Shown here piece after piece: positions 4,658 through 15,707 of a stretch of DNA of 37,799 bases. The stretch comes from a virus. The notes beneath the pieces were generated by a model. That model searched no databases. It was given only the letters and a program-made list of their open reading frames with translations, and was not told the origin of the DNA. Positions within the stretch are counted from its first letter, which is position 1; every line of letters starts with the position of its first letter. The stretch spans positions 1 to 37,799 of the IMG/VR virus record IMGVR_UViG_3300035703_000212. One strand, 5' to 3'. The translations under genes were made by a program, and so were the position numbers.

Positions 4658-4920
4658 TGAAGCACAGCCCCGCCACCATCGCCATCCAGCGCAAGCTCGA
4701 CCGCTGGGAACTTGAACACCTGCGCCTGCTGGCCGCGCAGCAGGCCGAGCAGATCGAAGAACTGCAGCGCCGCCTGGCATGGGCCGAAGACTGCGCCGAA
4801 CGCTGGCGCGACGATGCGCTGGATCTGCAGGCGCAGCTGGCCGACAGCGTCGGCGGCGTGCCCGGCCTGACGCGCGACGGCCAGCTGGTTGTCGTTGGGG
4901 GTGCTGAGGTGCAGGCATGA
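4657..4920 (+). CDS. Small coiled-coil protein
   Basis: This 87-residue protein is dominated by one long amphipathic helix (LEHLRLLAAQQAEQIEELQ and on to about residue 65) with heptad-like leucines, so it is probably a coiled-coil oligomer. The ATG at 4657 overlaps the previous TGA; a GTG one codon earlier is possible. No function is recognised. Confidence 0.6.
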   Translation: MKHSPATIAIQRKLDRWELEHLRLLAAQQAEQIEELQRRLAWAEDCAERWRDDALDLQAQLADSVGGVPGLTRDGQLVVVGGAEVQA

Positions 4921-5132
4921 GGATTTTTACTTGGCCTGAAGGTGTCGCCGCCGCGGTCGGCGTGAGCGAACCGCACTTGCAACACCTGCGCAGCCGCGGC
5001 GATGCGCCTCAGCTTTATGCGGTCACAGAGCGCCGGCTTGTGACAACGGAAGCAGACCTTATCGAATGGATCACGGCGAAGGCTGTGCCTGTTGATTACA
5101 AGTGCCGCCCGGCGACAAGGAGCAAGGCATGA
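4917..5132 (+). CDS. AlpA/excisionase-like helix-turn-helix protein
   Basis: This 71-residue protein reads WPEGVAAAVGVSEPHLQHLR followed by a strand-turn and ITEADLIEWI-like end (VTTEADLIEWI). That layout resembles the winged-helix MerR/AlpA/Xis group, which bind DNA as regulators or recombination directionality factors. No integrase is present in the window, so an excisionase role would need a partner from elsewhere. Its start and stop both overlap its neighbours. Confidence 0.55.
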   Translation: MRIFTWPEGVAAAVGVSEPHLQHLRSRGDAPQLYAVTERRLVTTEADLIEWITAKAVPVDYKCRPATRSKA

Positions 5133-5296
5133 CCCGCTACCCACGGTCCACCCGCGAGGCATTCGCCTGCGAGCGCTATCCGGCCATCGAGGTTTACCGC
5201 GCGCCGCCGCTGTCGCGCTGGGCTCGGCCGCTGTCGTGGCTGGTCACTCTGGGGCTGCTGGCCGGGATTGGCGCGATGTTGGCGTGGAGGGGGTGA
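5129..5296 (+). CDS. Small single-pass membrane protein
   Basis: This 55-residue protein has a polar N-terminus and one hydrophobic segment near the C-terminus (LSWLVTLGLLAGIGAMLAW), probably an inner-membrane helix. The ATG at 5129 is preceded by AGGAG and overlaps the previous TGA. Function unknown. Confidence 0.6.
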   Translation: MTRYPRSTREAFACERYPAIEVYRAPPLSRWARPLSWLVTLGLLAGIGAMLAWRG

Positions 5297-6696
5297 TGGA
5301 CTACGTGGCTTACGTTGCAGCCAAGTTGTCGCGCGTTCCGCCAACAGGCATGCCACATACAGCGCATATCCCGCACGATGGTTTGTTCGATCACCAGCGC
5401 GCTCTCGTTCGCTGGGCCTGCACGCGAGGTCGCGCCGCCATCTTTGCGGACACCGGGCTGGGCAAGAGCCGCATGCAACTGGCATGGGCTGAGGCCGTGC
5501 GCCTGCATACCGGCAAGCCAGTGCTGATTTTGGCGCCGCTGGCAGTAGCGCCGCAGACGGCAGCTGAAGGGCTGGAGATCGGCGTGCAGGTGATGCACTG
5601 CCGCGACGGCAGCGACTATGACCAGGCCGAAGGCTCTGGCATTGTCATCACCAACTATGACCGACTGCACCGCTTTGATCCGTCGATCTTTGGTGCGGTA
5701 GTGCTGGATGAATCGAGCTGCATCAAGCATCACGATGCCAAGACGCTGCGCACGCTGCTGGAGGCCTTTCGAGATACGCCTTTTAAGCTATGCGCCACTG
5801 CCACACCGGCACCAAACGACTGGACAGAGCTAGGCACGCATGCCGAGTTTCTGGGCATTTGCACCAGGCAGGAAATGCTGGCCGAATACTTCACCCATGA
5901 CGGTGGCGACACCAGCGTATGGCGCCTGAAGGGCCACGCGCGGCAGGTGTTCTGGCGCTGGGTCAGCCAATGGGGCGCGATGGTACGCAGGCCATCTGAT
6001 CTAGGGTTCGATGACTCGGCCTATGTGCTGCCGAACCTGCACCTGCACGAGCACACCGTCGATACAGAAATGCCGTTCAACGGCATGCTGTTTGCCGTTG
6101 AAGCACAGACTCTCAGCGAGCGCCGTGACGCGCGCCGATTGTCTACTGCCGATCGTGTGCACGACTGTGCTGCGATCGTCAACGGCGAGGCCGCCGAGCC
6201 CTGGGTGGTCTGGTGCGACCTTAACGCCGAAGGCGACGCGCTGACGGCCGCCATCAATGGCGCGGTGCAGATCGCCGGCGCCGACCCTGCCGAAGTGAAA
6301 GAGCAGCGCCTTGCCGACTTTGCCGCCGGGAAATTCCGCGTGCTGGTCAGCAAGCCGTCGATCTGCGGGTTTGGGTTGAACTGGCAGCACGCCGCACGCA
6401 TGGCCTTTGTCGGCGTAACCGACAGCTTCGAGGCGTACTACCAGGCCGTGCGCCGGTGCTGGCGCTTTGGCCAGACGCGCGACGTGCATGTGCATGTGTT
6501 CGCATCCAGCAGCGAGGGCGCCGTGGTTGCGAACCTGAAGCGCAAAGAGCGCGACGCGAAGGCCATGGCCGAAAGCCTTAGCGCCGAGACGCGCGACGCT
6601 GTGATGCAGGAAGTCACCGGCTTGACACGGCAGACAAACATCTACAACGCCGGGCAGCGCGTGGCTGTTCCGGAATTCTTGAAGGACGCCGCATGA
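5296..6696 (+). CDS. SNF2-like superfamily 2 DNA helicase/translocase
   Basis: This 466-residue phage-type SF2 ATPase probably translocates on double-stranded DNA. Residues 52-58 give Walker A (DTGLGKS). The DEAH-box equivalent is VVLDESS near residue 135, followed by ATATPAPN (motif III). The second RecA domain holds VVWCDLNAEGDAL, SKPSICGFGLNWQ and motif VI in AVRRCWRFGQTRD, the Snf2-type QxxxRxxRxGQ pattern. The ATG at 5296 is chosen for GGAGGGGG upstream and its TGATG overlap; the frame extends upstream but looks like a shadow. It overlaps the DNA methyltransferase start, and such pairs are common in phages, where they may aid modification or replication. Confidence 0.85.
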   Translation: MDYVAYVAAKLSRVPPTGMPHTAHIPHDGLFDHQRALVRWACTRGRAAIFADTGLGKSRMQLAWAEAVRLHTGKPVLILAPLAVAPQTAAEGLEIGVQVMHCRDGSDYDQAEGSGIVITNYDRLHRFDPSIFGAVVLDESSCIKHHDAKTLRTLLEAFRDTPFKLCATATPAPNDWTELGTHAEFLGICTRQEMLAEYFTHDGGDTSVWRLKGHARQVFWRWVSQWGAMVRRPSDLGFDDSAYVLPNLHLHEHTVDTEMPFNGMLFAVEAQTLSERRDARRLSTADRVHDCAAIVNGEAAEPWVVWCDLNAEGDALTAAINGAVQIAGADPAEVKEQRLADFAAGKFRVLVSKPSICGFGLNWQHAARMAFVGVTDSFEAYYQAVRRCWRFGQTRDVHVHVFASSSEGAVVANLKRKERDAKAMAESLSAETRDAVMQEVTGLTRQTNIYNAGQRVAVPEFLKDAA

Positions 6697-7562
6697 ACTG
6701 CATCGACCAAGTGGTAACTGATCGCTATGCCGCGTATCACGGCGACTGCGTTGAAGTGCTTAATGGCCTGCCCGACGCCAGCGTGGGTTATTCGATTTTC
6801 TCGCCGCCATTTGCCAGCCTGTACACCTACAGCAATAGCCCGCGAGACATGGGCAACGTGCGCGACGATGCCGAATTCTTCGCGCATTTCGATTTCCTGA
6901 TTGCCGAGCTGCGCCGCGTGATGAAGCCCGGCCGAAACATCAGCTTTCACTGCATGGACATGCCCAGCAGCAAAGAGCGCGACGGCGTCATCGGGCTGAA
7001 GGATTTTCCTGGCGACCTGCTGCGCGCTTTCCAGAAGCACGGCTTCATCTTCCACGCGAAGGTGACGATCTGGAAAGACCCTGTTACTGCCATGCAGCGC
7101 ACCAAGGCGCTGGGCCTGCTGCACAAGACCGTGCGCGAAAACGCTGCCATGTGCCGGATGGGCATCCCCGACTACCTTATCACCGTGCGGGCGCCTGGCG
7201 AGTGCGAGCGCGTCACGCACGGCGCCGAGTTTCCCGTCGATCTTTGGCAAAAGGTTGCTAGTCCTGTCTGGATGGATATCAACCCGTCAGACACCTTGCA
7301 ATACCGGAGCGCGAGAGAGCACGACGACGAGCGCCATATATGCCCGCTTCAGCTTGATGTGATTCGGCGCGGCGTGATGCTTTGGACGAACCCGGATGAC
7401 ATCGTGTTGTCGCCTTTCATGGGCATCGGCAGCGAGGGCTACGTGGCTTTGGAGATGCAAAGGCGCTTCATAGGGGCAGAGCTGAAGGCCAGTTATTACC
7501 AGCAGGCGATTGCCAACTTGGCAGCAGCCACCTTCAAGACGCAGGATTTGTTCGCAGCATGA
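6693..7562 (+). CDS. DNA methyltransferase, beta class (N4-cytosine or N6-adenine)
   Basis: This 289-residue protein is a SAM-dependent DNA methyltransferase. Motif IV SPPF (37-40) comes early, and motif I, SPFMGIGSEG, comes near residue 245. This permuted order defines the beta class. SPPF/SPPY is more usual in N4-cytosine enzymes, so N4-methylcytosine is the likelier product, though N6-adenine is possible. The last part (EMQRRFIGAELKASYYQQA) is the usual motif X/I helix. No cognate endonuclease is seen, so it is probably an orphan that protects phage DNA from restriction. It is coupled to the helicase upstream (ATGA). Confidence 0.88.
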   Translation: MNCIDQVVTDRYAAYHGDCVEVLNGLPDASVGYSIFSPPFASLYTYSNSPRDMGNVRDDAEFFAHFDFLIAELRRVMKPGRNISFHCMDMPSSKERDGVIGLKDFPGDLLRAFQKHGFIFHAKVTIWKDPVTAMQRTKALGLLHKTVRENAAMCRMGIPDYLITVRAPGECERVTHGAEFPVDLWQKVASPVWMDINPSDTLQYRSAREHDDERHICPLQLDVIRRGVMLWTNPDDIVLSPFMGIGSEGYVALEMQRRFIGAELKASYYQQAIANLAAATFKTQDLFAA

Positions 7563-8734: not shown

Positions 8735-9009
8735 CCACAGACACCACACTCCCGCGGCACGCCAAGCCGGTGCGGCTGGAGATCAACAACAGCGGCTCCT
8801 GGAAGGTGCTGGGCCGCTTCGACGCCGCCGACGAGCTGCAGGCGAGCCTGGTGCTGGACGCCGCCGACGACATGGTGCGCGCGCTGCACAACAGCGAAGA
8901 CCCGAAGAACTGCCCTGCGCTGCGCGTGTCGGTGGACCCCATCACCGTGCTGCTGCGCTGGGACTTGGCCCGCGGCTGGCATGACGCGGCCAGCGGAAGG
9001 TCTGTCTGA
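8731..9009 (+). CDS. Hypothetical 92-residue early protein
   Basis: An alpha/beta protein with strand-like VRLEINNSGSWKVLGRF at the start, then a helix and a second strand pair (ALRVSVDPITVLLRWDL). Start and stop both overlap the neighbours. The repeated beta layout could be a small DNA- or protein-binding domain, but the family is not recognised. Confidence 0.55.
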   Translation: MTTDTTLPRHAKPVRLEINNSGSWKVLGRFDAADELQASLVLDAADDMVRALHNSEDPKNCPALRVSVDPITVLLRWDLARGWHDAASGRSV

Positions 9010-9440
9010 TGACCCGCAAGCGCTGCCACCGCCGCATCACCCTGCCCATGCCGCCGCGCGGCCTGAGGCCCAAGCTCGACCGCAGCCAGCTGCTCGACCT
9101 GAGCCTGGTGCATCTGCAGAACCTGGACGCGCTGGCCCGCGGCGGCGCCAACAGCGGCACGTTGTGGGAATGCGTGGCCGGCGCGCTCACGTGGTCGCGC
9201 GTGGCCCAGCTGCTGCAAGTGGGCGAGCCCGAGATGGCCGAGCAGCTGCACATGCTCGATGGCGTGGTGCAGCGCTTCCAGCGCACTGGGCGCATTGGGC
9301 TGTCGGGACCGGAGTATCAGCTGGCGCGGCTGGGCGTGGAGGTGATGGACGAGCTGGCGCGCATCACCGACCTGGCCACCGCCCAGGCCGCGGCGAATTG
9401 GAGTGAGGCGCGGATTGCAGCAATGGTGGGTAACGTTTGA
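9009..9440 (+). CDS. Hypothetical protein, last gene before the cassette array
   Basis: A 143-residue protein with a basic N-terminus and a long helical core (LLDLSLVHLQNLDALARGG; QLLQVGEPEMAEQLHMLDG). It is the last tightly coupled gene of the early operon. Its final codons and TGA lie inside the first attC-like site (9428-9488), so the cassette array begins exactly at the end of this gene. The true C-terminus may have been replaced when the array formed. No family is recognised; similar small helical proteins occur at the end of phage early operons. Confidence 0.6.
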   Translation: MTRKRCHRRITLPMPPRGLRPKLDRSQLLDLSLVHLQNLDALARGGANSGTLWECVAGALTWSRVAQLLQVGEPEMAEQLHMLDGVVQRFQRTGRIGLSGPEYQLARLGVEVMDELARITDLATAQAAANWSEARIAAMVGNV

Positions 9441-9488
9441 GCTGAGGGGCGCCGCCGTGCGGCGTCCCGCTCAAGCGAAGGGTTGGGC
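9428..9488 (-). repeat. attC-like site 1 (61 bp)
   Basis: Outer boxes are GGGTAAC (9428-9434) and GTTGGGC (9482-9488). The inner stem pairs GGGGCGCCGC with GCGGCGTCCC. The right arm has the extra base, as in the other sites. It overlaps the stop of the last phage early gene and belongs to the cassette to its right. Confidence 0.75.
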
Positions 9489-9516: not shown

Positions 9517-9951
9517 ATGCTGAACTTGGAAGACCTGATGGCGCGCGGCAACTGCGCCAGCACGACGGCCACGACAGGCCCGACGCTGACCGCGAGCGGC
9601 CTGATTAAGCAGATGCAGCGCGTGCGCCGGATGATTGACCTGGCCGAAGCCGGGCGCATTGCTCCGAGCGGCCCGCTGCAAGTGCGCGAGAGCCCGATGG
9701 CGTTGCAGGCGGTGCCGGTGAAACGCCACAAGAAGCGGCGCAACCAGACCGAGGCGTACCACCGGCGCGTGCAGAAGAAATGGACCAAGCGCCACGGCAC
9801 GAAGCAGGTTCCCGCCGCGTACATGATCGACAACAGCGTGATCGGCGGCTATGGGCAGACGCTGGTGGCGCACCCTTCAATCGTGGCCCGCCTGAAGCGC
9901 CCTAACGCCAGGTTAGCCGCCACCCCACACTGGCGGCATGCAAAGGATTGA
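9517..9951 (+). CDS. Cassette ORF 1, hypothetical basic protein
   Basis: A 144-residue protein with a helical first half and a strongly basic middle (KRHKKRRNQTEAYHRRVQKKW). It probably binds nucleic acid. The tail resembles a short phage structural or DNA-binding protein (AAYMIDNSVIGGYG). I chose the ATG at 9517 because AAAGGAC stands upstream; an in-frame GTG at 9493 is possible. The frame runs through the degenerate attC-like site 2 and stops in its loop, overlapping the next start by one base. No family recognised. Confidence 0.6.
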   Translation: MLNLEDLMARGNCASTTATTGPTLTASGLIKQMQRVRRMIDLAEAGRIAPSGPLQVRESPMALQAVPVKRHKKRRNQTEAYHRRVQKKWTKRHGTKQVPAAYMIDNSVIGGYGQTLVAHPSIVARLKRPNARLAATPHWRHAKD

Positions 9952-9972: not shown

Positions 9973-10268
9973 TTCTGCCGGATGGCAGCGCGTTTGCCAC
10001 CGCAAGCTGGCCGCTGCCGAAAGACCACTGGCTGTATGCGCCGCGTGGCGATTGGGACAGCGCCCGCGATGAGTACGCGGAATGCCCGCTGCCGATCTTG
10101 ACCAACGCACAGCGCCAGGCCGTGACCGCTGCCGCGCGCTACGCCATCCGGGGCGCGACGATGTGCGGGCAGGAACAGGACTTCGACCCGGACGCGCTGG
10201 TGCTGAACCTGTGCTACGCCCTGTGCGGGCCGGCTGGTGGCGCGCTGCTGCCGGCTGATGGCGGCTAA
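9951..10268 (+). CDS. Cassette ORF 2, hypothetical protein
   Basis: A 105-residue acidic alpha/beta protein (MMDNQVTVLPDGSAFATASWPLPKDHWLYAP...) with a cysteine-containing C-terminal half. AAAGG precedes the tandem ATGs. The stop TAA is supplied by the left R box of attC site 3 (GGCTAAC), a feature shared by seven cassettes here. No function recognised; it resembles phage-borne proteins more than resistance cassettes. Confidence 0.65.
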   Translation: MMDNQVTVLPDGSAFATASWPLPKDHWLYAPRGDWDSARDEYAECPLPILTNAQRQAVTAAARYAIRGATMCGQEQDFDPDALVLNLCYALCGPAGGALLPADGG

Positions 10269-10331
10269 CGTTGGAGCTAAGCGGGGCGGCACGGTACTCC
10301 GTGACGACTCCGCTTGAGCGAACAGTTAGGC
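10263..10331 (-). repeat. attC-like site 3 (69 bp)
   Basis: Boxes are GGCTAAC (10263-10269) and GTTAGGC (10325-10331). L boxes are GCTAAGCGG on the left and CCGCTTGAGC on the right; the right arm has the extra base. The loop is short and holds no start codon. Confidence 0.85.
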
Positions 10332-10442: not shown

Positions 10443-10634
10443 ATGTACGAAGACTGGAACACCGAAGAGTTCTTCAAGCGCTTCAAGATCATCTGCCTGA
10501 AGTGCGGCAGCGATGACGTGAAGATCAGCGGCGACCAAGGGTGGGGCGGCACCGATGTGACGGCGGGCGACCCGGCCACGCTGGCGATTGGCTGCAACGC
10601 CTGCAAGCAGAACGACTTTGACTTCAGCGCCTAA
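10443..10634 (+). CDS. Cassette ORF 3, small zinc-ribbon protein
   Basis: A 63-residue protein with two CxxC knuckles (CLKCGSDD near residue 18 and CNACKQ near residue 53) forming a probable zinc ribbon, with an acidic N-terminus. AAAGGAGAGC gives a strong ribosome site 5-12 bases before the ATG. The stop TAA lies in the R box of attC site 4. About 110 bp of apparently non-coding leader separate it from site 3; this could hold a promoter, but I see no clear hexamers. Confidence 0.75.
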   Translation: MYEDWNTEEFFKRFKIICLKCGSDDVKISGDQGWGGTDVTAGDPATLAIGCNACKQNDFDFSA

Positions 10635-10724
10635 CGTCGGCGTTGAGCCGACCGCGCGGCAAAGGAAAGACGATGGACGATGACGCAACGCCGCGCGAGG
10701 TCGGCTCGAACGGCCCGGTTAGGC
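10629..10724 (-). repeat. attC-like site 4 (96 bp), start codon in loop
   Basis: Boxes are GCCTAAC (10629-10635) and GTTAGGC (10718-10724). Arms pair GTTGAGCCGACC with GGTCGGCTCGAAC, the right having an extra base. The loop carries AAAGGAAAG and the ATG of the next gene (10673). Confidence 0.85.
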
Positions 10725-11014
10725 CGCTTCGGTGGTTGTGCCAGTCGTGCGACTGGACAGGCGACGACGGCGAACTGCTGCGAGCGCCGAGTCCGTTTGA
10801 CGCCAGCGACACGATTGTCGGATGCCCGAAGTGCAAGGCGGTGGAGGACATCGCCAATGCTTGCGACGAGCCCGGCTGCACGCGCGAGGCAACGTGCGGA
10901 TTTCCAGATCCAGGCGGCTACCGCAGGACGTGCGGCGAACACTTCAAGTGGTGGGATGAGCGGCCTAACGCTAGGTTGAGCCGACAAGGAGGCGCAGATG
11001 ACGACCGCAAATGA
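10673..11014 (+). CDS. Cassette ORF 4, multi-cysteine zinc-binding protein
   Basis: A 113-residue protein whose first 15 residues are encoded by the loop and right arm of its own attC. The body has several cysteine pairs (CQSCDWTGDDGE, CPKCKAVE, CDEPGCTREATC and TCGEHF), consistent with two small zinc fingers. AAAGGAAAG lies upstream of the ATG. The frame does not use the TAA in the next R box; it crosses site 5 and stops at 11014, overlapping the next gene by 17 bp. No named family. Confidence 0.7.
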   Translation: MDDDATPREVGSNGPVRPLRWLCQSCDWTGDDGELLRAPSPFDASDTIVGCPKCKAVEDIANACDEPGCTREATCGFPDPGGYRRTCGEHFKWWDERPNARLSRQGGADDDRK

Positions 11015-11061
11015 GACAACGCAGCCAGCCGACGAAGGTCGGCTCGAACCGACAGTTAGGC
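10963..11061 (-). repeat. attC-like site 5 (99 bp), start codon in loop
   Basis: Boxes are GCCTAAC (10963-10969) and GTTAGGC (11055-11061). Arms pair GTTGAGCCGAC with GTCGGCTCGAAC, the extra base being on the right. AAGGAGG and the ATG at 10998 lie in the loop. It is identical to site 10. Confidence 0.85.
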
Positions 11062-11384
11062 CGCAGATTGTGCTGCCTGACATGTGCAAGACACACCAGA
11101 CGCTACTGGTGCGACAGTGCGGCTATGGCCCGGAAGACCCGTGGCGGGCGCTACTGATTGCGACCCAAATCGCGCTCTTCCAGGGCGCCACGGCAGACCC
11201 GAAGGTGCATGCCGAGACGAGCGGGCAAGTCGAAAACCTGAGCGGCCTCGGCTGCCTTGCGTGCCGCAAGCCCGACCTGTTCGGCGCGCTGGTGGACAAG
11301 GTACAGAAGACGTTCCCACGCGATGCGCACATCGGCGTCATCAAGTCGCTGGGCGAGCGCTGGGTGGCTGATGCTGCTGCCTAA
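10998..11384 (+). CDS. Cassette ORF 5, hypothetical protein (copy 1)
   Basis: A 128-residue protein. The first 22 residues (MTTANETTQPADEGRLEPTV) come from the attC loop and right arm. The folded part probably begins at PQIVLPDMCKTHQTLLVRQC and continues as a mixed helix protein with a CxxC-like LGCLACRKPD. A strong AAGGAGG precedes the ATG. The TAA stop is in the R box of site 6. An identical second copy lies at 13739. The cysteine and histidine pattern suggests metal binding; function unknown. Confidence 0.75.
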   Translation: MTTANETTQPADEGRLEPTVRPQIVLPDMCKTHQTLLVRQCGYGPEDPWRALLIATQIALFQGATADPKVHAETSGQVENLSGLGCLACRKPDLFGALVDKVQKTFPRDAHIGVIKSLGERWVADAAA

Positions 11385-11481
11385 CGTTCGAGCTAACCGG
11401 GAGCCAACAGCGTGAGCGAACCTGTAAGAAAAGCTGAGGAGTTGCCCGCTGTTGGCTCTCCGGTTGAGCGAGGGGTTGGGC
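11379..11481 (-). repeat. attC-like site 6 (103 bp), start codon in loop
   Basis: Boxes are GCCTAAC (11379-11385) and GTTGGGC (11475-11481). Arms are GCTAACCGGGAGCCAACAG and CTGTTGGCTCTCCGGTTGAG; the right arm has two extra bases. The GTG of the next gene (11412) is in the loop. Confidence 0.85.
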
Positions 11482-11804
11482 GGCTGGAGCCGGAGCGCGC
11501 AAGTGCTTGCGGACTGACAGAGTGCCAGGGCAAGCCCATGTGCCCGCGATGCGAGCGCTGGAAAGCCCGCGACGACGGCATGCCGGGCGACCCCGACGAA
11601 CGCCACTTGCGCCGGCTGCTGGCGCTGTACGTCGCTATGCCGCTGACCTACTTTGACGACGGCGAGGCAAGCGGCTGGGAGAAGGGCATCAGCATTGACT
11701 TCATGCGCGAACCCGTGGTAGACATTGACGCCAAGCTGCACGCGCTGGGTGTTGCACGGGCCGAGCGCCTGAAGACGCCCAACGTTCGAGGTAAGCAGCC
11801 ATGA
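11412..11804 (+). CDS. Cassette ORF 6, hypothetical protein
   Basis: A 130-residue protein with a GTG start in the attC loop. The first part is attC-encoded (EELPAVGSPVERGVGRLEPE). A cysteine pair follows (CQGKPMCPRCERW), then a conserved-looking helical region (PDERHLRRLLALYVAMPLTYFDDGE). Ribosome binding is weak (GGAG 9 bases upstream). An internal start cannot be excluded. It crosses the left box of site 7, which lacks TAA, and stops overlapping the next ATG. No family recognised. Confidence 0.6.
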   Translation: MSEPVRKAEELPAVGSPVERGVGRLEPERASACGLTECQGKPMCPRCERWKARDDGMPGDPDERHLRRLLALYVAMPLTYFDDGEASGWEKGISIDFMREPVVDIDAKLHALGVARAERLKTPNVRGKQP

Positions 11805-11876
11805 CCGGCGAGACACTGTTTGCAGACGCCCAGGCGCAGGCCGCCGGGCATGGTCTGCTTGACCGAGGGGTTGTGC
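11777..11876 (-). repeat. attC-like site 7 (100 bp), start codon in loop
   Basis: Boxes are GCCCAAC (11777-11783) and GTTGTGC (11870-11876). Arms GGTAAGCAGCCATG and CATGGTCTGCTTGACC pair, the right arm with two extra bases. Unusually, the ATG at 11801 lies in the paired arm. Confidence 0.8.
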
Positions 11877-12520
11877 CGCCGGTGGAGGTGGCGGTGCTGT
11901 TTGCGCGCCAGGACAGCGTATACAAGACGCTGCCGGGATGCGAGGTGTACGACATGGAGCGCGACGCCCGCACCTACGATGGCCCGTGGCCGGTGGTGGC
12001 GCACCCGCCCTGCCGCGCGTGGGGAAGGCTGCGGCAGTTTGCGAACCCACGCCCCGATGAGCGCAACCTTGCACGCTTGGCTGTGGCCCTGGTGCGTGAG
12101 TTTGGCGGCGTGCTGGAACACCCGGTGGGCAGCACGCTATGGCCGGCGCAGAGGCTTCCGCGACCTGGTGAACGCGACCAGTGGGGCGGCTGGACGCTTG
12201 CCGCGCCGCAGCAGTGGTGGGGGCACAAGGCCGAGAAGGCGACGTGGTTCTACGTGGTGGGCTGCGAGCCGCGCGACCAGCCGACGATGCCACTGGTGCT
12301 GGGCGAAGCCGAGTACGTGGTGCAGAGCCGAAAGCGCCAGGACTACCGCCCGCACATCACGAAGGCCGAACGCGAGCACACCCCCCCCGAGCTGGCTGAA
12401 TGGCTGGTGCGCCTTGCGTTGGCGTGCGGCAAGCGGCACAACGTTCGAGCTAAGCGGGCCGCCGAAGGCGGTCCGCTTGAGCGACCAGTTATGCCCGCGT
12501 TGAACGAAGCCAAGGAATGA
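11801..12520 (+). CDS. Cassette ORF 7, conserved phage-type hypothetical protein
   Basis: A 239-residue protein with motifs I recognise from hypothetical proteins of many phages and prophages: VAVLFARQDSVYKTLPG, PVVAHPPCRAWGRLRQFA, GGVLEHPVGSTLW, GGWTLAAPQQWWGH and ITKAEREHTPPELAEWLV. Function is not established. VAHPPCRAWG faintly recalls the PPC loop of cytosine methyltransferases, but no SAM motif is evident. The first 25 residues come from attC site 7, and the last 28 are read through site 8 to a stop at 12520. Its presence as a cassette links the array to phage cargo rather than antibiotic resistance. Confidence 0.8.
   Translation: MTGETLFADAQAQAAGHGLLDRGVVPPVEVAVLFARQDSVYKTLPGCEVYDMERDARTYDGPWPVVAHPPCRAWGRLRQFANPRPDERNLARLAVALVREFGGVLEHPVGSTLWPAQRLPRPGERDQWGGWTLAAPQQWWGHKAEKATWFYVVGCEPRDQPTMPLVLGEAEYVVQSRKRQDYRPHITKAEREHTPPELAEWLVRLALACGKRHNVRAKRAAEGGPLERPVMPALNEAKE
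12436..12494 (-). repeat. attC-like site 8 (59 bp)
   Basis: Boxes are GCACAAC (12436-12442) and GTTATGC (12488-12494). L boxes are GCTAAGCGG and CCGCTTGAGC with an inner GCCGCC stem. It is a compact, classical site of 59-base-element length. Confidence 0.9.
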
Positions 12521-12524
12521 CGCT

Positions 12525-13355
12525 GTGGAAACCTACAAATTTGGGACCAAGAACAACTGGCGCAAGTGGCTGTGGAACCGCATCACAGAGCGACTTCATG
12601 TGCCGGTGAGGAATGCGCTTGTTTTGTACATGGGCGCCGCAGAAGACCTGGACCGCGCCGAAGCGCTGCGCAGAGGCTTTACCAATACGAACCTGATTCA
12701 TGTGGACAGAGACGCGAAGGTGACGGCTGCGGTTCGGCGTGCCGGCGGCCTGGGCGTGACCGGCGACTTCTTCGAGGTGGTTCGATGCTGGCCGCAGCGT
12801 CACAGCATCGACGTTGTTCTCGGAGACTTTTGCAATGGCCTCACCGCCAACAATTGGACGGGCGTGGTGCAGCTTCCGCTGTGGCGCCAATGCAGAGAGT
12901 CTGTGTTTGCTTTCAACTTGCTCAGGGGCCGCGACCCAGCGACAAACGAGTGGCGGGCGATGTGGCAGAAAGGGCATGAGAAGGACACCAAGCACCGCGT
13001 CCAGATTTGCGCGACAGAGCAGGTTGTCGTTTGTCGAGGGCTGGTGACCGGGGCTTACGCCATGGCGGCCGGCGGCAAACTCGCGCAGAGCGAAGATCCC
13101 TTGCGGTTGGCGGCGCACGCTGCCGACCTGGCGAAGTCATGGCCGGCGGCCAAGTACAGCGAACGCGACTACCGCAGCACTGCTTTTCAGACCTTCGACT
13201 CCGGCGTGTGGATCTCCCCCTATCGCGGCTTGGACGGCCTTGACTGGACGCACGTTGACCAGTCTCTGGCTGAAACGGTGGAGCAGAACCCACTGCGCCG
13301 GCAGATCGCCGCGGTGCGAGCGCACCACACGCGCCGCACACACCTTAGGGCATAA
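12525..13355 (+). CDS. Cassette ORF 8, Rossmann/methyltransferase-like protein, paralogue A
   Basis: A 276-residue protein with a GTG start behind AAGGA. It is clearly related to cassette ORF 12. Shared blocks are W-R-x-x-LWN near the start, ALVLYMGAAEDLDRAEAL, GFTNTNLIHVDRD, VTGDFFEV, DVVLGDFCNGLT, FNLLRGRDPA, YRSTAFQTFDS, and a C-terminal RQIAAVRAHHTRR. A hydrophobic strand-glycine loop, an acidic residue at the end of the next strand, then GD and a strand ending in D match the order of motifs I-IV in class I SAM methyltransferases. The enzyme call is inference only. The TAA stop is in the R box of site 9. Confidence 0.7.
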   Translation: METYKFGTKNNWRKWLWNRITERLHVPVRNALVLYMGAAEDLDRAEALRRGFTNTNLIHVDRDAKVTAAVRRAGGLGVTGDFFEVVRCWPQRHSIDVVLGDFCNGLTANNWTGVVQLPLWRQCRESVFAFNLLRGRDPATNEWRAMWQKGHEKDTKHRVQICATEQVVVCRGLVTGAYAMAAGGKLAQSEDPLRLAAHAADLAKSWPAAKYSERDYRSTAFQTFDSGVWISPYRGLDGLDWTHVDQSLAETVEQNPLRRQIAAVRAHHTRRTHLRA

Positions 13356-13470
13356 CCGGTCGAGCTAACCTGGACCTAACAGCGCGAGGACCACATGAGT
13401 GACGACAACGTACCGCACGACCCCAACAACCGGCCCGCTGTTGGGGATCAGGTTGAGCGCCGTGTTAGGC
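13350..13470 (-). repeat. attC-like site 9 (121 bp), start codon in loop
   Basis: Boxes are GCATAAC (13350-13356) and GTTAGGC (13464-13470). Arms GCTAACCTGGACCTAACAG and CTGTTGGGGATCAGGTTGAG pair, the right arm with the extra base. The loop contains GAGGA and the ATG at 13395. Confidence 0.85.
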
Positions 13471-13709
13471 GCTCGGTTCCGAAGCGCGCAACGGCTCGCA
13501 TGACGCTGAAAGACTTTGCCACGATGGCGGGCGTAACCGTGGAGCGCTGCGACAAGGAGTGGGGCGGGACGTGGGCATACAAGACCGCCGACAACCCGCG
13601 CTGCACATTCTGCGGCCACCGCACAGAGAAAGCACTGTACCGGGCTTGGGCCGAAGACACATTCGGCAAGGCGGCATGCAAGGCGCTGGCCAAACTGTTG
13701 AGCGCCTAA
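13395..13709 (+). CDS. Cassette ORF 9, small protein with CxxC motif
   Basis: A 104-residue protein. The first 25 residues are attC-encoded (PAVGDQVERRVRR). The body reads MTLKDFATMAGVTVERCDKEWGG and then CTFCGHRTEKALYRAW, a helix plus a one-knuckle metal site. An internal ATG at 13500 could be the original start, but GAGGA favours 13395. The TAA stop is in the R box of site 10. No family recognised. Confidence 0.65.
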   Translation: MSDDNVPHDPNNRPAVGDQVERRVRRSVPKRATARMTLKDFATMAGVTVERCDKEWGGTWAYKTADNPRCTFCGHRTEKALYRAWAEDTFGKAACKALAKLLSA

Positions 13710-13802
13710 CGCTAGGTTGAGCCGACAAGGAGGCGCAGATGACGACCGCAAATGAGACAACGCAGCCAGCCGACGAAGGTCGGCTCGAACCGACAGTTAG
13801 GC
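13704..13802 (-). repeat. attC-like site 10 (99 bp), identical to site 5
   Basis: Boxes are GCCTAAC (13704-13710) and GTTAGGC (13796-13802). It forms the left part of the duplicated cassette and carries AAGGAGG and an ATG in the loop. Confidence 0.85.
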
Positions 13803-14125
13803 CGCAGATTGTGCTGCCTGACATGTGCAAGACACACCAGACGCTACTGGTGCGACAGTGCGGCTATGGCCCGGAAGACCCGTGGCGGGCGCTACTGATT
13901 GCGACCCAAATCGCGCTCTTCCAGGGCGCCACGGCAGACCCGAAGGTGCATGCCGAGACGAGCGGGCAAGTCGAAAACCTGAGCGGCCTCGGCTGCCTTG
14001 CGTGCCGCAAGCCCGACCTGTTCGGCGCGCTGGTGGACAAGGTACAGAAGACGTTCCCACGCGATGCGCACATCGGCGTCATCAAGTCGCTGGGCGAGCG
14101 CTGGGTGGCTGATGCTGCTGCCTAA
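13739..14125 (+). CDS. Cassette ORF 10, hypothetical protein (copy 2)
   Basis: Identical 128-residue product to the ORF at 10998, with the same AAGGAGG, an attC-encoded N-terminus and a TAA in the next R box (site 11). The perfect conservation of both copies, including synonymous sites, implies a recent duplication or ongoing homogenisation. Confidence 0.75.
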   Translation: MTTANETTQPADEGRLEPTVRPQIVLPDMCKTHQTLLVRQCGYGPEDPWRALLIATQIALFQGATADPKVHAETSGQVENLSGLGCLACRKPDLFGALVDKVQKTFPRDAHIGVIKSLGERWVADAAA

Positions 14126-14215
14126 CGTCGAAGCTAAGCGGGCGCTGCCCGCACAGGAGGATTGATGGACAACGACAGGACGCCGGCAGCGCTCCGCTTG
14201 AGCGACCAGTTAGGC
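14120..14215 (-). repeat. attC-like site 11 (96 bp), start codon in loop
   Basis: Boxes are GCCTAAC (14120-14126) and GTTAGGC (14209-14215). Arms GCTAAGCGGGCGCTGCC and GGCAGCGCTCCGCTTGAGC pair, the right arm with two extra bases. AGGAGG and the ATG at 14165 are in the loop. Confidence 0.85.
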
Positions 14216-14537: not shown

Positions 14538-14596
14538 GCCTAACGTTGGAGCTAACCTGGCCGCCGAAGGCGGTCCGGTTGAGCGACCAGTTAGGG
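14538..14596 (-). repeat. attC-like site 12 (59 bp)
   Basis: Boxes are GCCTAAC (14538-14544) and GTTAGGG (14590-14596). L boxes are GCTAACCTGG and CCGGTTGAGC, around a GCCGCC / GGCGGT stem with a GAA loop. It is a compact classical site. Confidence 0.9.
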
Positions 14597-14642: not shown

Positions 14643-15569
14643 ATGAACTACGACTTCTCCCAGAAACGCCACTGGCGCCGCTCTTTGTGGAACTGCATTG
14701 GCGACCGTGTGCAAACCGCGAAGCGCGACGCCCTTGTCTTGTATTTGGCCGGCGGGCTGGATGAAGACCGACCCGTAGCGCTGGCCAAGGGCTTCAGAAG
14801 CCAGAACCTCATTGCCATTGAGCATGATGAAGAAACCGCGCAGCACTTGCGCCAACGCGGAACATTGACATTGGTCGGTGATGCGTTTGCACACGCCCTA
14901 GCATGGAACCCTAAGCGACACATCGACGTGTGCGTCTTGGACTTGTGCGGTGGGCTGACGCAACGCACCGCCGAGAGCATTGAAACCATGCTGGCGCTGC
15001 CGCACTTTGCCAACGCCGTGGTAGCCGTGAATATGCTTCGGGGCCGTGATGCAGCAGGAAATGAACTGCGTAACGCCCTGGCCACAAGCCAACGCAATCT
15101 GCTGCAAGAAAGCCTGGGTGTTGAATCTCGCGCAGTTCGGCTCGGAGTGGTGAGCCAAGAGGAGTTTTCCGCCATGTTATTCAAGGCGTTGGGCGGCGAC
15201 CCAATGAAGCACCGCGGCTCCCTGCTGCAGTCTTTAATTATGCGCAACTGGATGGCGCACTGCCTGCTGGCGGAAGGCGCTGTAGACGAACGCCTGCAGC
15301 CGACCGAGCTGGATGGACGCTCAAACTCCGCAGCAGGCAACCGGTTCGTTGCAGCCATCCAGCGCGCCAAGTTTCAGACTTTGAGCTACCGCTCGACGGC
15401 GCACCAAACCTTCGACACGCTCGTCTTCTGCAATTCTTTGGCCGCTGGGAACGTGCACTTTTCTCTTGAAGCTACGGCCATTGAGCGCAGCGACCCAGGG
15501 CTAGTGCGACACCGGCAGCAACAGGCGGCGATCTTGGCGCACCGGACGCGCCGCGCTGGAAGGCCCTAA
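14643..15569 (+). CDS. Cassette ORF 12, Rossmann/methyltransferase-like protein, paralogue B
   Basis: A 308-residue paralogue of the ORF at 12525. Shared blocks: HWRRSLWN, ALVLYLAGGLDEDRPVAL, SQNLIAIEHDEE, LVGDAFAHA, VCVLDLCGGLT, VNMLRGRDAAG, YRSTAHQTFDT and RQQQAAILAHRTRR. The order of a glycine loop, an acidic strand end (IEHD), GDAF and a strand ending in LDLCG suits a SAM-dependent methyltransferase fold, but the substrate is unknown. The TAA stop is in the R-like box of the attI-like core at the array end. In the canonical orientation it would be the first cassette. Confidence 0.7.
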   Translation: MNYDFSQKRHWRRSLWNCIGDRVQTAKRDALVLYLAGGLDEDRPVALAKGFRSQNLIAIEHDEETAQHLRQRGTLTLVGDAFAHALAWNPKRHIDVCVLDLCGGLTQRTAESIETMLALPHFANAVVAVNMLRGRDAAGNELRNALATSQRNLLQESLGVESRAVRLGVVSQEEFSAMLFKALGGDPMKHRGSLLQSLIMRNWMAHCLLAEGAVDERLQPTELDGRSNSAAGNRFVAAIQRAKFQTLSYRSTAHQTFDTLVFCNSLAAGNVHFSLEATAIERSDPGLVRHRQQQAAILAHRTRRAGRP

Positions 15570-15595
15570 CTATGCAAGTAGGGCAATAGTTAATG
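15564..15595 (-). promoter_or_regulatory. attI-like core at the array end
   Basis: Read on the minus strand this 32-bp segment contains GCCCTA, 8 bases, then GTTAGGG. This resembles the simple L/R core of integron attI sites; as I recall, class 1 attI has GCCCTA, 7 bases, GTTAGGC. It also has TAACTAT / ATAGTTA as an inverted repeat. It lacks attC arms. It is where the canonical integron layout would place the insertion site, immediately before the first cassette. Confidence 0.5.
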
Positions 15596-15654
15596 AATGA
15601 CACGACCGCTTATGCGCTGCGCGAGTGGCGCGACATCCCCGGAGCCGCCGGCTA
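15593..15654 (+). pseudogene. Possible truncated 5' end of a gene, cut by the tRNA fragment
   Basis: An ATG-started frame encodes MNDTTAYALREWRDIPGAAGY and then passes into the tRNA-Leu sequence, where the translation becomes meaningless. REWRDIPG resembles the start of NUMOD4 motifs in HNH homing-type endonucleases. It may be the stump of a gene interrupted by site-specific recombination. Evidence is slight. Confidence 0.3.
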
Positions 15655-15707
15655 CTCAAAATCCCCCGCCGCAAGGCGTGCCGGTTCGAGTCCGGCCCCG
15701 GGCACCA
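15655..15707 (+). tRNA. tRNA-Leu(CAA) 3' fragment (probable attP core)
   Basis: The segment contains the anticodon loop CTCAAAA (anticodon CAA), the 3' anticodon strand TCCCC, a long variable arm CGCC-GCAA-GGCG, a perfect T-arm (GCCGG TTCGAGT CCGGC), the acceptor strand CCCGGGC, a discriminator A and CCA. The 5' half is missing: no GCCCGGG acceptor strand or D-arm precedes it, and the 5' anticodon strand does not pair. Fragments like this are typical attP cores of phages that integrate into tRNA genes and restore the host gene. No integrase gene accompanies it here. Confidence 0.8.

Follow-up and report, generated by a model that had tools for sequence, protein, structure and literature searches.

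The window, by which we mean the whole analysed stretch of 37,799 nucleotides (IMG/VR virus record IMGVR_UViG_3300035703_000212), was found to contain an array of 11 intact attC sites with paired RYYYAAC and GTTRRRY cores, inner L boxes and the one-base asymmetry typical of integron cassette arrays (Table 1). Sites were called with a relaxed finder, and at equal score none were detected in shuffled windows. Four sites were compact (59–69 bp) and seven were long (96–121 bp), the same lengths as in the initial annotation. A conserved phage gene adjoins the array upstream, with homologues in contigs L121–L124 and in L302, L325, and L326, which carry an integron integrase (IntI). The left core GCCTAAC was seen to contain the stop codons of several genes, as in ordinary cassettes. 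The window itself showed no tyrosine recombinase domain or IntI and no recognisable attI motif, and is thus an attC array rather than a complete integron (intI, attI, and attC). Pfam and PHROGs searches assigned no confident function to the cassette proteins, except for a PHROG of unknown function matching 11801–12520. The search for related isolate phages gave no hits beyond a tRNA-Leu fragment, a single methylase match and some short pieces, and the window cassette genes used as query recovered a single relative, L125. Besides, the window has cassette genes and neighbouring genes in common with IntI-bearing phages.

Table 1. Features of the attC array, in window coordinates.
Feature	Position	Strand	Gene start and remarks
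Conserved phage gene	9009..9440	+	adjoins array upstream
attC 1, compact (61 bp)	9428..9488	+	downstream, 9517
Collapsed attC ("site 2"), CCCTAACGCCAGGTTAGCC	about 9904..9922	+	downstream, near 9951; left and right cores, middle deleted
attC 3, compact (69 bp)	10263..10331	+	downstream, 10443
attC 4, long (96 bp)	10629..10724	+	built-in, AAGGA, ATG 10673; 17 attC-encoded codons
attC 5, long (99 bp)	10963..11061	+	built-in, AAGGAGG, ATG 10998
425-bp duplication, copy 1 (attC and gene)	10963..11387	+	perfect; edges are left cores
attC 6, long (103 bp)	11379..11481	+	built-in, GGAG, GTG 11412
attC 7, long (100 bp)	11777..11876	+	built-in, GAGGT, ATG 11801
attC 8, compact (59 bp)	12436..12494	+	downstream, GTG 12525
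attC 9, long (121 bp)	13350..13470	+	built-in, GAGG, ATG 13395
attC 10, long, identical to attC 5	13704..13802	+	built-in, AAGGAGG, ATG 13739
425-bp duplication, copy 2	13704..14128	+	perfect; edges are left cores
attC 11, long (96 bp)	14120..14215	+	built-in, AGGAGG, ATG 14165
attC 12, compact (59 bp)	14538..14596	+	downstream, 14643
Last left-type core, CCCTAAC	15565..15571	+	3′ end of array
tRNA-Leu 3′ fragment	15654..15707		after last left-type core

In all seven long sites an ATG or GTG with a Shine-Dalgarno (SD) motif was located within the variable loop, although the GAGGT of attC 7 is weak and widely spaced from its ATG. The predicted N-termini, for example TTANETTQPADEGRLEPTVRP, would include 17–25 attC-encoded residues. 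As attC 10 lies in a perfect copy of the attC 5 unit, these amount to six independent cases, one of them duplicated. The genes behind all four compact sites start downstream of the attC. The initial annotation had placed the start of eight out of 12 cassette genes inside their own attC; this was borne out for the seven long sites, but not for the degenerate "site 2". A homologous gene in L316 (88% at the amino acid level) starts downstream of an intact 54-bp attC (7390–7443), and alignment with that site showed "site 2" to be a collapsed attC. The corrected count is therefore seven of 11 intact sites.

Starts built into the loop were shown to be widespread and strand-specific in phage attCs. 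Among IMG/VR phage contigs, 78 of 166 long attCs carried an SD motif and a start in the gene direction, compared to nine on the opposite strand and to 13.1 ± 3.3 (maximum 20) after shuffling of the loops, a six-fold excess; the remaining 88 long sites had no built-in start under the criteria used. Clustering of similar sites gave the same picture (69 of 141 vs. 8 of 141 on the opposite strand). None of 101 short phage sites had a start in the loop, so that attC length predicts the position of the start across phage arrays. Long attCs with the same arms in bacterial integrons were near background (7 of 86), and loop starts can thus be dismissed as a general trait of long attCs.

From these sequence patterns, the variable region of long sites appears to double as a translation initiation region, as first suggested, and the loop starts are probably used in translation. 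Translation could instead begin at codons within the gene, beyond the attC, the loop ORFs being chance extensions in GC-rich DNA, where long open frames are common; indeed, 23 of the 78 start-bearing sites also have an SD motif and ATG/GTG within 30 codons downstream. We regard this as improbable, since it accounts neither for the excess over shuffled loops and the strand asymmetry nor for the near-background level in bacterial long loops. Moreover, pairing was lower at the SD motif and at the start than elsewhere in the loop (p = 0.003 and 2e-6, respectively), and in each of two pairs of contigs (L113/L278 and L043/L296) a shared gene body was found in frame behind different attC heads, in the latter pair by means of an extra G that preserves the reading frame.

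In an ordinary integron, an attC ahead of a gene is part of the previous cassette. The polarity of the sites was determined from the extra L-box base, using an arm-pairing score of our own rather than a published attC model. In the intact window sites the extra base was located in the right arm; for attC 1 this was read by eye from a manual alignment (left GCT-GAG, right GCTTGAG) and not from an automatic call. The controls, namely class 1 attCs (cmlA1 and arr), a Vibrio site and phage TJE1, had it in the gene-side left arm. All nine window cassettes that were called for direction were inverted. By folded-arm asymmetry, 158 unique phage cassettes from 60 loci were inverted, one was canonical and 17 were unresolved, whereas integrons from GTDB that share the arm motif gave 41 canonical and 8 inverted calls. 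A scan of IMG/VR for a different attC subtype, made as a check of generality, gave a mixed result from few arrays; its canonical calls came from one contig, L427, so the method is able to pick up canonical direction. Canonical direction was seen in a few other IMG/VR contigs (L427 and L454). The organization of an ordinary gene cassette, with the gene upstream of its own attC, canonical polarity and expression from Pc, was not found in the window array.

IntI was found in 28 loci, and the relatives encode it immediately behind the array, on the strand of the cassette genes. The family assignment was made for the L111 IntI only, which scored 428 bits (TIGR02249 cut-off 265) and aligned to VchIntIA (2A3V) over 310 residues through the catalytic region, and is thus VchIntIA-like. 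In the IntI loci inspected, an attI-like segment was present just upstream of the intI start, with intI reading away from it; this conserved attI begins at the same left-type core, about 48 bp before intI. L454 is an exception-like record as regards the direction of intI and attI. Complete integrons were found in L111 and several of L301–L322. All 14 callable cassettes were co-directional with intI and, as intI follows directly downstream with attI about 48 bp before it, cassettes and intI probably form one operon. In a phylogenetic comparison, 21 of 23 phage IntIs fell into one clade (support 99/98), with chromosomal IntIs of Rubrivivax, Ideonella, and Dechloromonas as sister group.

The boundaries of the mobile units were identified from homology breakpoints between arrays. 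At the 3′ side, 41 breakpoints fell in a left core and one in a right core. Whole units extending from left core to left core were found in L006/L075, L120/L269, L271/L307, and as a tandem in L315, and sharing bounded by cores between different phages reached 99.5% identity. The 425-bp duplication, like the shared cassettes, has its edges at GCCTAA^C. The unit edge thus lies at the left core, and the attC forms the 5′ head of its own cassette. At the 5′ side, core-located breakpoints were not exclusive to one core (11 left and 8 right), which suggests occasional exchange of heads at the right core. The earlier statement that attC and gene travel together was thus upheld, for a reason that the initial annotation did not contain and that is the main result here: it holds because the cassettes are inverted, and in an ordinary integron it would not.

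The opposite reading is that these are ordinary cassettes, each a gene followed by its own attC, so that a start in the upstream attC belongs to the previous cassette and is separated from its gene at recombination, loop starts being by-products of packing. The integron-type cores and arms, the gene stops in the left core and the eight right-core positions among the 19 core-located 5′ breakpoints would fit such cassettes. This reading is, however, already contradicted by the unit boundaries, namely the 3′ breakpoints and the left-core-to-left-core duplication, as well as by the arm asymmetry opposite to that of the controls and the left-type core at which the attI beside intI begins, and we hold it to be very unlikely. 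Just as little weight is given to the hairpins being mainly RNA elements of the phage operon (e.g., translational switches or intercistronic processing sites) that no longer recombine. The lack of IntI in the window and the location of the SD motif where the hairpin loop is more accessible agree with this, but the nearly identical core-bounded sharing between phages and the perfect duplicate pair in one window point to recent mobility, and relatives carry IntI with attI.

We conclude that the window array is likely an integrase-less attC cluster derived from a class of phage integrons in which every cassette is inverted, a class that looks undescribed. The anatomy, strand bias, unit boundaries and co-directional intI can be read from the sequences themselves. 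The excised or inserted unit would be a gene preceded, on its 5′ side, by its attC; the canonical R′ crossover, G^TTRRRY, would then appear on the coding strand as GCCTAA^C in the left arm, and the minus strand would be the one that recombines. At long sites, the variable terminal loop may have been co-opted as a translation head displaying SD motif and start codon; the ORF crosses the right arm and continues into the body of the gene, where an SD-preceded start is often lacking. The compact sites would be devoid of this head, their genes carrying SD motif and start just downstream but still within the unit. Since these phage cassettes are back to front compared to those of bacterial integrons, the start often lies inside the attC ahead of the gene. 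The window cassettes were presumably mobilised by a helper IntI or one since lost, and the probable operon of cassettes and intI would be read from upstream and not from a Pc promoter. On balance, we favour the view that a phage-specific integron lineage reversed the cassette, so that the hairpin became a 5′ gene head with ribosome-binding site, start codon and N-terminal peptide, and that the integrase, with occasional right-core exchange, shuffles self-starting genes, sometimes with interchangeable heads and bodies, within a phage operon without cassette promoter.

Cassettes of known integrons have the recombination site as their last part, the platform supplies expression, and attC hairpins have been reported to hinder translation of the downstream gene (PMC4670013, PMC8876359). 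In the phage arrays the hairpin appears to start the gene and to supply its ribosome site, and a captured gene should therefore work anywhere in a transcribed phage operon. A single DNA segment would at once be the substrate of recombination, the leader of the mRNA and coding sequence. The arrays also suggest an integron lineage owned by phages, in which small accessory genes continue to be swapped. Where software or analyses presume that cassettes are canonically oriented, genes of such arrays may be assigned to the wrong attC.

Phage attC clusters and integrons have been described previously, with cassettes in phage genomes that are often without integrase, and IntI1 recombined five of six tested phage attCs with attI1 (Qi et al., 2023; PMC9892861). 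TJE1 and PH101 were described there with typical cassette orientation, and for TJE1 our re-reading of the polarity confirmed this; inverted arrays, start codons in attC or a phage IntI clade were not described. The reverse integrons of Treponema (PMC3607928, PMC6557892) are similar in that intI and cassette genes are co-directional, but their intI precedes the cassettes and is transcribed in the direction of attI. The phage IntI loci inspected are not of this type: they keep the ordinary arrangement of an intI beginning at attI, and it is the cassette genes that are turned round. ORF-11 in the class 1 attI1 (PMC8876359) likewise places an SD motif and a start in a recombination site to the benefit of the following gene; it belongs to the fixed attI platform, however, extends across the crossover point and works through coupling by a short peptide, whereas in the phage arrays every mobile cassette brings a start that forms an in-frame fusion with its gene. 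The chromosomal integrons of Rubrivivax, Ideonella, and Dechloromonas share the attC arm motif with the phage arrays, but differ in their mostly canonical gene direction and the lack of a clear excess of loop starts.

The cassette array of the window is bordered by a conserved phage gene and a tRNA-Leu fragment (table below), and all of its cassette genes lie on the + strand with attC-like sites between them. Among the 37,799 bases of this IMG/VR virus record, 11 intact attC-like sites were found, four compact (59–69 bp) and seven long (96–121 bp), in agreement with the site lengths in the initial annotation, and after block shuffling of the window no site reached an equal score. The loops of all seven long sites (one a perfect copy of another) contained a Shine-Dalgarno (SD) motif and an ATG or GTG, and the ORFs begun there cross the right arm and continue into the gene; at the compact sites the gene starts downstream of attC. 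The degenerate site 2, previously counted as holding the start of its gene, turned out to be a collapsed version of the kind of attC found intact (54 bp) in L316, a phage locus with an integron integrase (IntI); the same gene follows both, and in L316 it starts downstream. Several window ORFs terminate in the next attC, and a swap of the downstream cassette would alter their C-termini. The tRNA-Leu fragment gave matches to tRNA-Leu genes (3′ half) in several phages and prophages, and no whole tRNA was called there by ARAGORN; it lies directly behind the array and is possibly a phage attachment site.

Features of the window and of comparison loci (IMG/VR contigs unless stated)
Record	Coordinates	Feature	Remark
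Window	5092–7562	Helicase and DNA methylase genes	Homologous to genes of L308 and L321
Window	9009–9440	Conserved phage gene	Borders array upstream
Window	10673; stop 11014	Cassette gene	Stop in loop of next attC, past that site's ATG
Window	11412; 11801–11804	Cassette gene	End overlaps ATG 11801 as ATGA
Window	12436–12520	59-bp attC	attC (12436–12494) read through entirely by 11801 gene, which ends at 12520
Window	12525–13355	Cassette protein, 276 aa	By eye, distant paralogue of 308-aa protein; no Pfam match
Window	14643–15569	Cassette protein, 308 aa	By eye, distant paralogue of 276-aa protein
Window	15654–15707	tRNA-Leu 3′ fragment	Borders array downstream
L006	2975–3059	Gene behind attC	98.5% identity to L048 gene, unrelated attC; own downstream SD and start; breakpoint at right core
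L048	11692–11760	Gene behind attC	As for L006
L308	1546–3815	Helicase and DNA methylase genes	Between cassettes and attI/intI
L321	5655–7924	Helicase and DNA methylase genes	Between cassettes and attI/intI
L315	6594–7928	Perfect 669-bp tandem duplication	Edge at attC left core, upstream of phage intI
L368 (KX853513, Virus Rctr41k)	4680–5678	IntI-like gene annotated xerD	46.6% identity; neighbours on same strand
L454	8001–8957; 9471–10839	IntI; attC pair and gene	IntI read toward attC pair of opposite polarity and canonical gene; Treponema-like layout

IMG/VR loci were gathered with two short patterns matching the arms and through homology, and 281 unique sites were scored. For a start to count as built in, its ATG or GTG had to lie in the loop behind a sensibly spaced SD match (4 bases or more), and its ORF had to continue for 40 codons or more past the site. 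About half of the long phage sites had such a start in the gene direction (78/166) compared to 9/166 on the opposite strand (Fisher, 5e-19), and loop-only shuffles of the 166 sites gave 13.1 ± 3.3. No built-in start was found in the 101 compact phage sites (long versus short, 8e-21), and among long sites from bacterial genomes, retrieved with the same pattern, 7 of 86 had one (shuffles 3.6; phage versus bacteria, 8e-11). The sites are partly kin by descent, which clustering only lessens; merging of similar sites left 69/141 in the gene direction versus 8/141 on the opposite strand. These counts refer to the one attC type to which the site finder was fitted and, for the phage sites, to IMG/VR contigs predicted to be viral. 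The proposal that attC length predicts the position of the start across many phage arrays holds insofar as built-in starts were confined to long sites.

L113 and L278 carry one gene body behind different long attCs. Either attC supplies an SD and start of its own, and the reading frame on entry to the body is identical for both heads. L043 and L296 likewise share a body behind differing attC heads, the frame being kept by an extra G in one arm. A stop in the exit arm blocks one frame in 68 of the 78 sites with a built-in start, and the starts use the two other frames (51 and 26). In predicted RNA structures, the SD and start were modestly more accessible than the remaining loop. An in-frame ATG, GTG or TTG was absent from the first 20 codons after attC in 20/78 genes; an SD-preceded start was present within 30 codons in 23/78, so that for individual genes internal initiation is possible.

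The class 1 attCs of cmlA1 and arr carry the extra L-box base on the gene-side (left) arm, which is the canonical polarity, and the same was found for a Vibrio anguillarum phage site and phage TJE1. The intact window sites have it in the right arm (site 1 by manual alignment), meaning that the arrays are canonical on the strand opposite the genes. With coding strands called by a codon-usage score, the unique phage cassettes from 60 loci comprised 158 inverted (attC 5′ of its gene), one canonical and 17 unresolved; bacterial loci with the same arm motif had 41 canonical, 8 inverted and 19 unresolved cassettes. This picture was unaffected by the choice of score margin. Other attC types in IMG/VR yielded few arrays, with mixed results that include a canonical contig (L427) and the IntI locus L454 with its canonical pair downstream.

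Canonical integron recombination cuts at G^TTRRRY. This corresponds to GCCTAA^C at the left arm on the coding strand, and the expected mobile unit is therefore an attC plus the downstream gene. That attC and gene travel together, as first suggested, is supported by three concordant boundary tests (duplication, 3′ homology ends and change upstream of attI). A perfect 425-bp duplication in the window extends from one GCCTAAC to the next plus two bases. The 3′ ends of homology blocks between phage loci fell at the left core in 41 cases and at the right core in one, each core type being expected by chance at about 3% of positions. Whole units from left core to left core were found in L006/L075 (99.5%), L120/L269 (97%) and L271/L307 (89%) and in the L315 tandem, and among phages that encode IntI, the segment before attI diverges exactly at the GCCTAA^C core. 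The 5′ breakpoints were mixed (11 left core, 8 right core), those at the right core representing gene bodies behind different attCs.

Neither IntI nor attI was found on searching the window. One of 31 array-bearing records searched, L111, contained a full IntI (TIGR02249, 428 bits) that aligns to VchIntIA 2A3V over 310 residues; by inspection, a small excisionase-like ORF and then a phage integrase follow its intI. Relatives of this IntI were present in 28 IMG/VR loci, and all callable cassettes (14/14) were co-directional with intI. In the IntI loci inspected, a conserved attI starts at the GCCTAA^C core and precedes intI by about 48 bp. A maximum-likelihood tree placed 21 of 23 phage IntIs in one clade (support 99/98), with the IntIs of Rubrivivax, Ideonella and Dechloromonas as its sister group; the divergent IntIs of L322 and L323 fell elsewhere on long branches. 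No member closer than 57% was found in 50,697 phage records. The virus of L368 has been published and stems from a methane-oxidising enrichment; the site finder gave no clear attC array near its IntI-like gene. The window has one cassette gene in common with L316, its upstream gene in common with the IntI loci L302, L325 and L326, and its helicase-methylase pair in common with the IntI loci L308 and L321 (88–93% amino acid identity). In the latter two, the location of this pair brings core phage genes next to the integron platform.

We suggest that the cassettes are transcribed from the upstream phage operon and that each supplies the ribosome site for its gene, located in the attC loop at long sites and directly after attC at compact sites. 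Judging from polarity and boundaries, IntI probably uses the minus strand for excision and insertion at GCCTAA^C, and the window cassettes may have been mobilised by an IntI since lost or acting in trans.

Integrons and attC clusters of typical orientation have already been reported in phages (PMC9892861). Literature chiefly outside subscription journals and bioRxiv gave no account of inverted phage cassettes or of attC start codons. The phage arrays differ from the reverse integrons of Treponema, in which it is intI that is transcribed toward attI (PMC3607928). For a recombination site that contains an SD and start, the closest precedent is ORF-11 in attI1 (PMC8876359), which, however, belongs to the platform.
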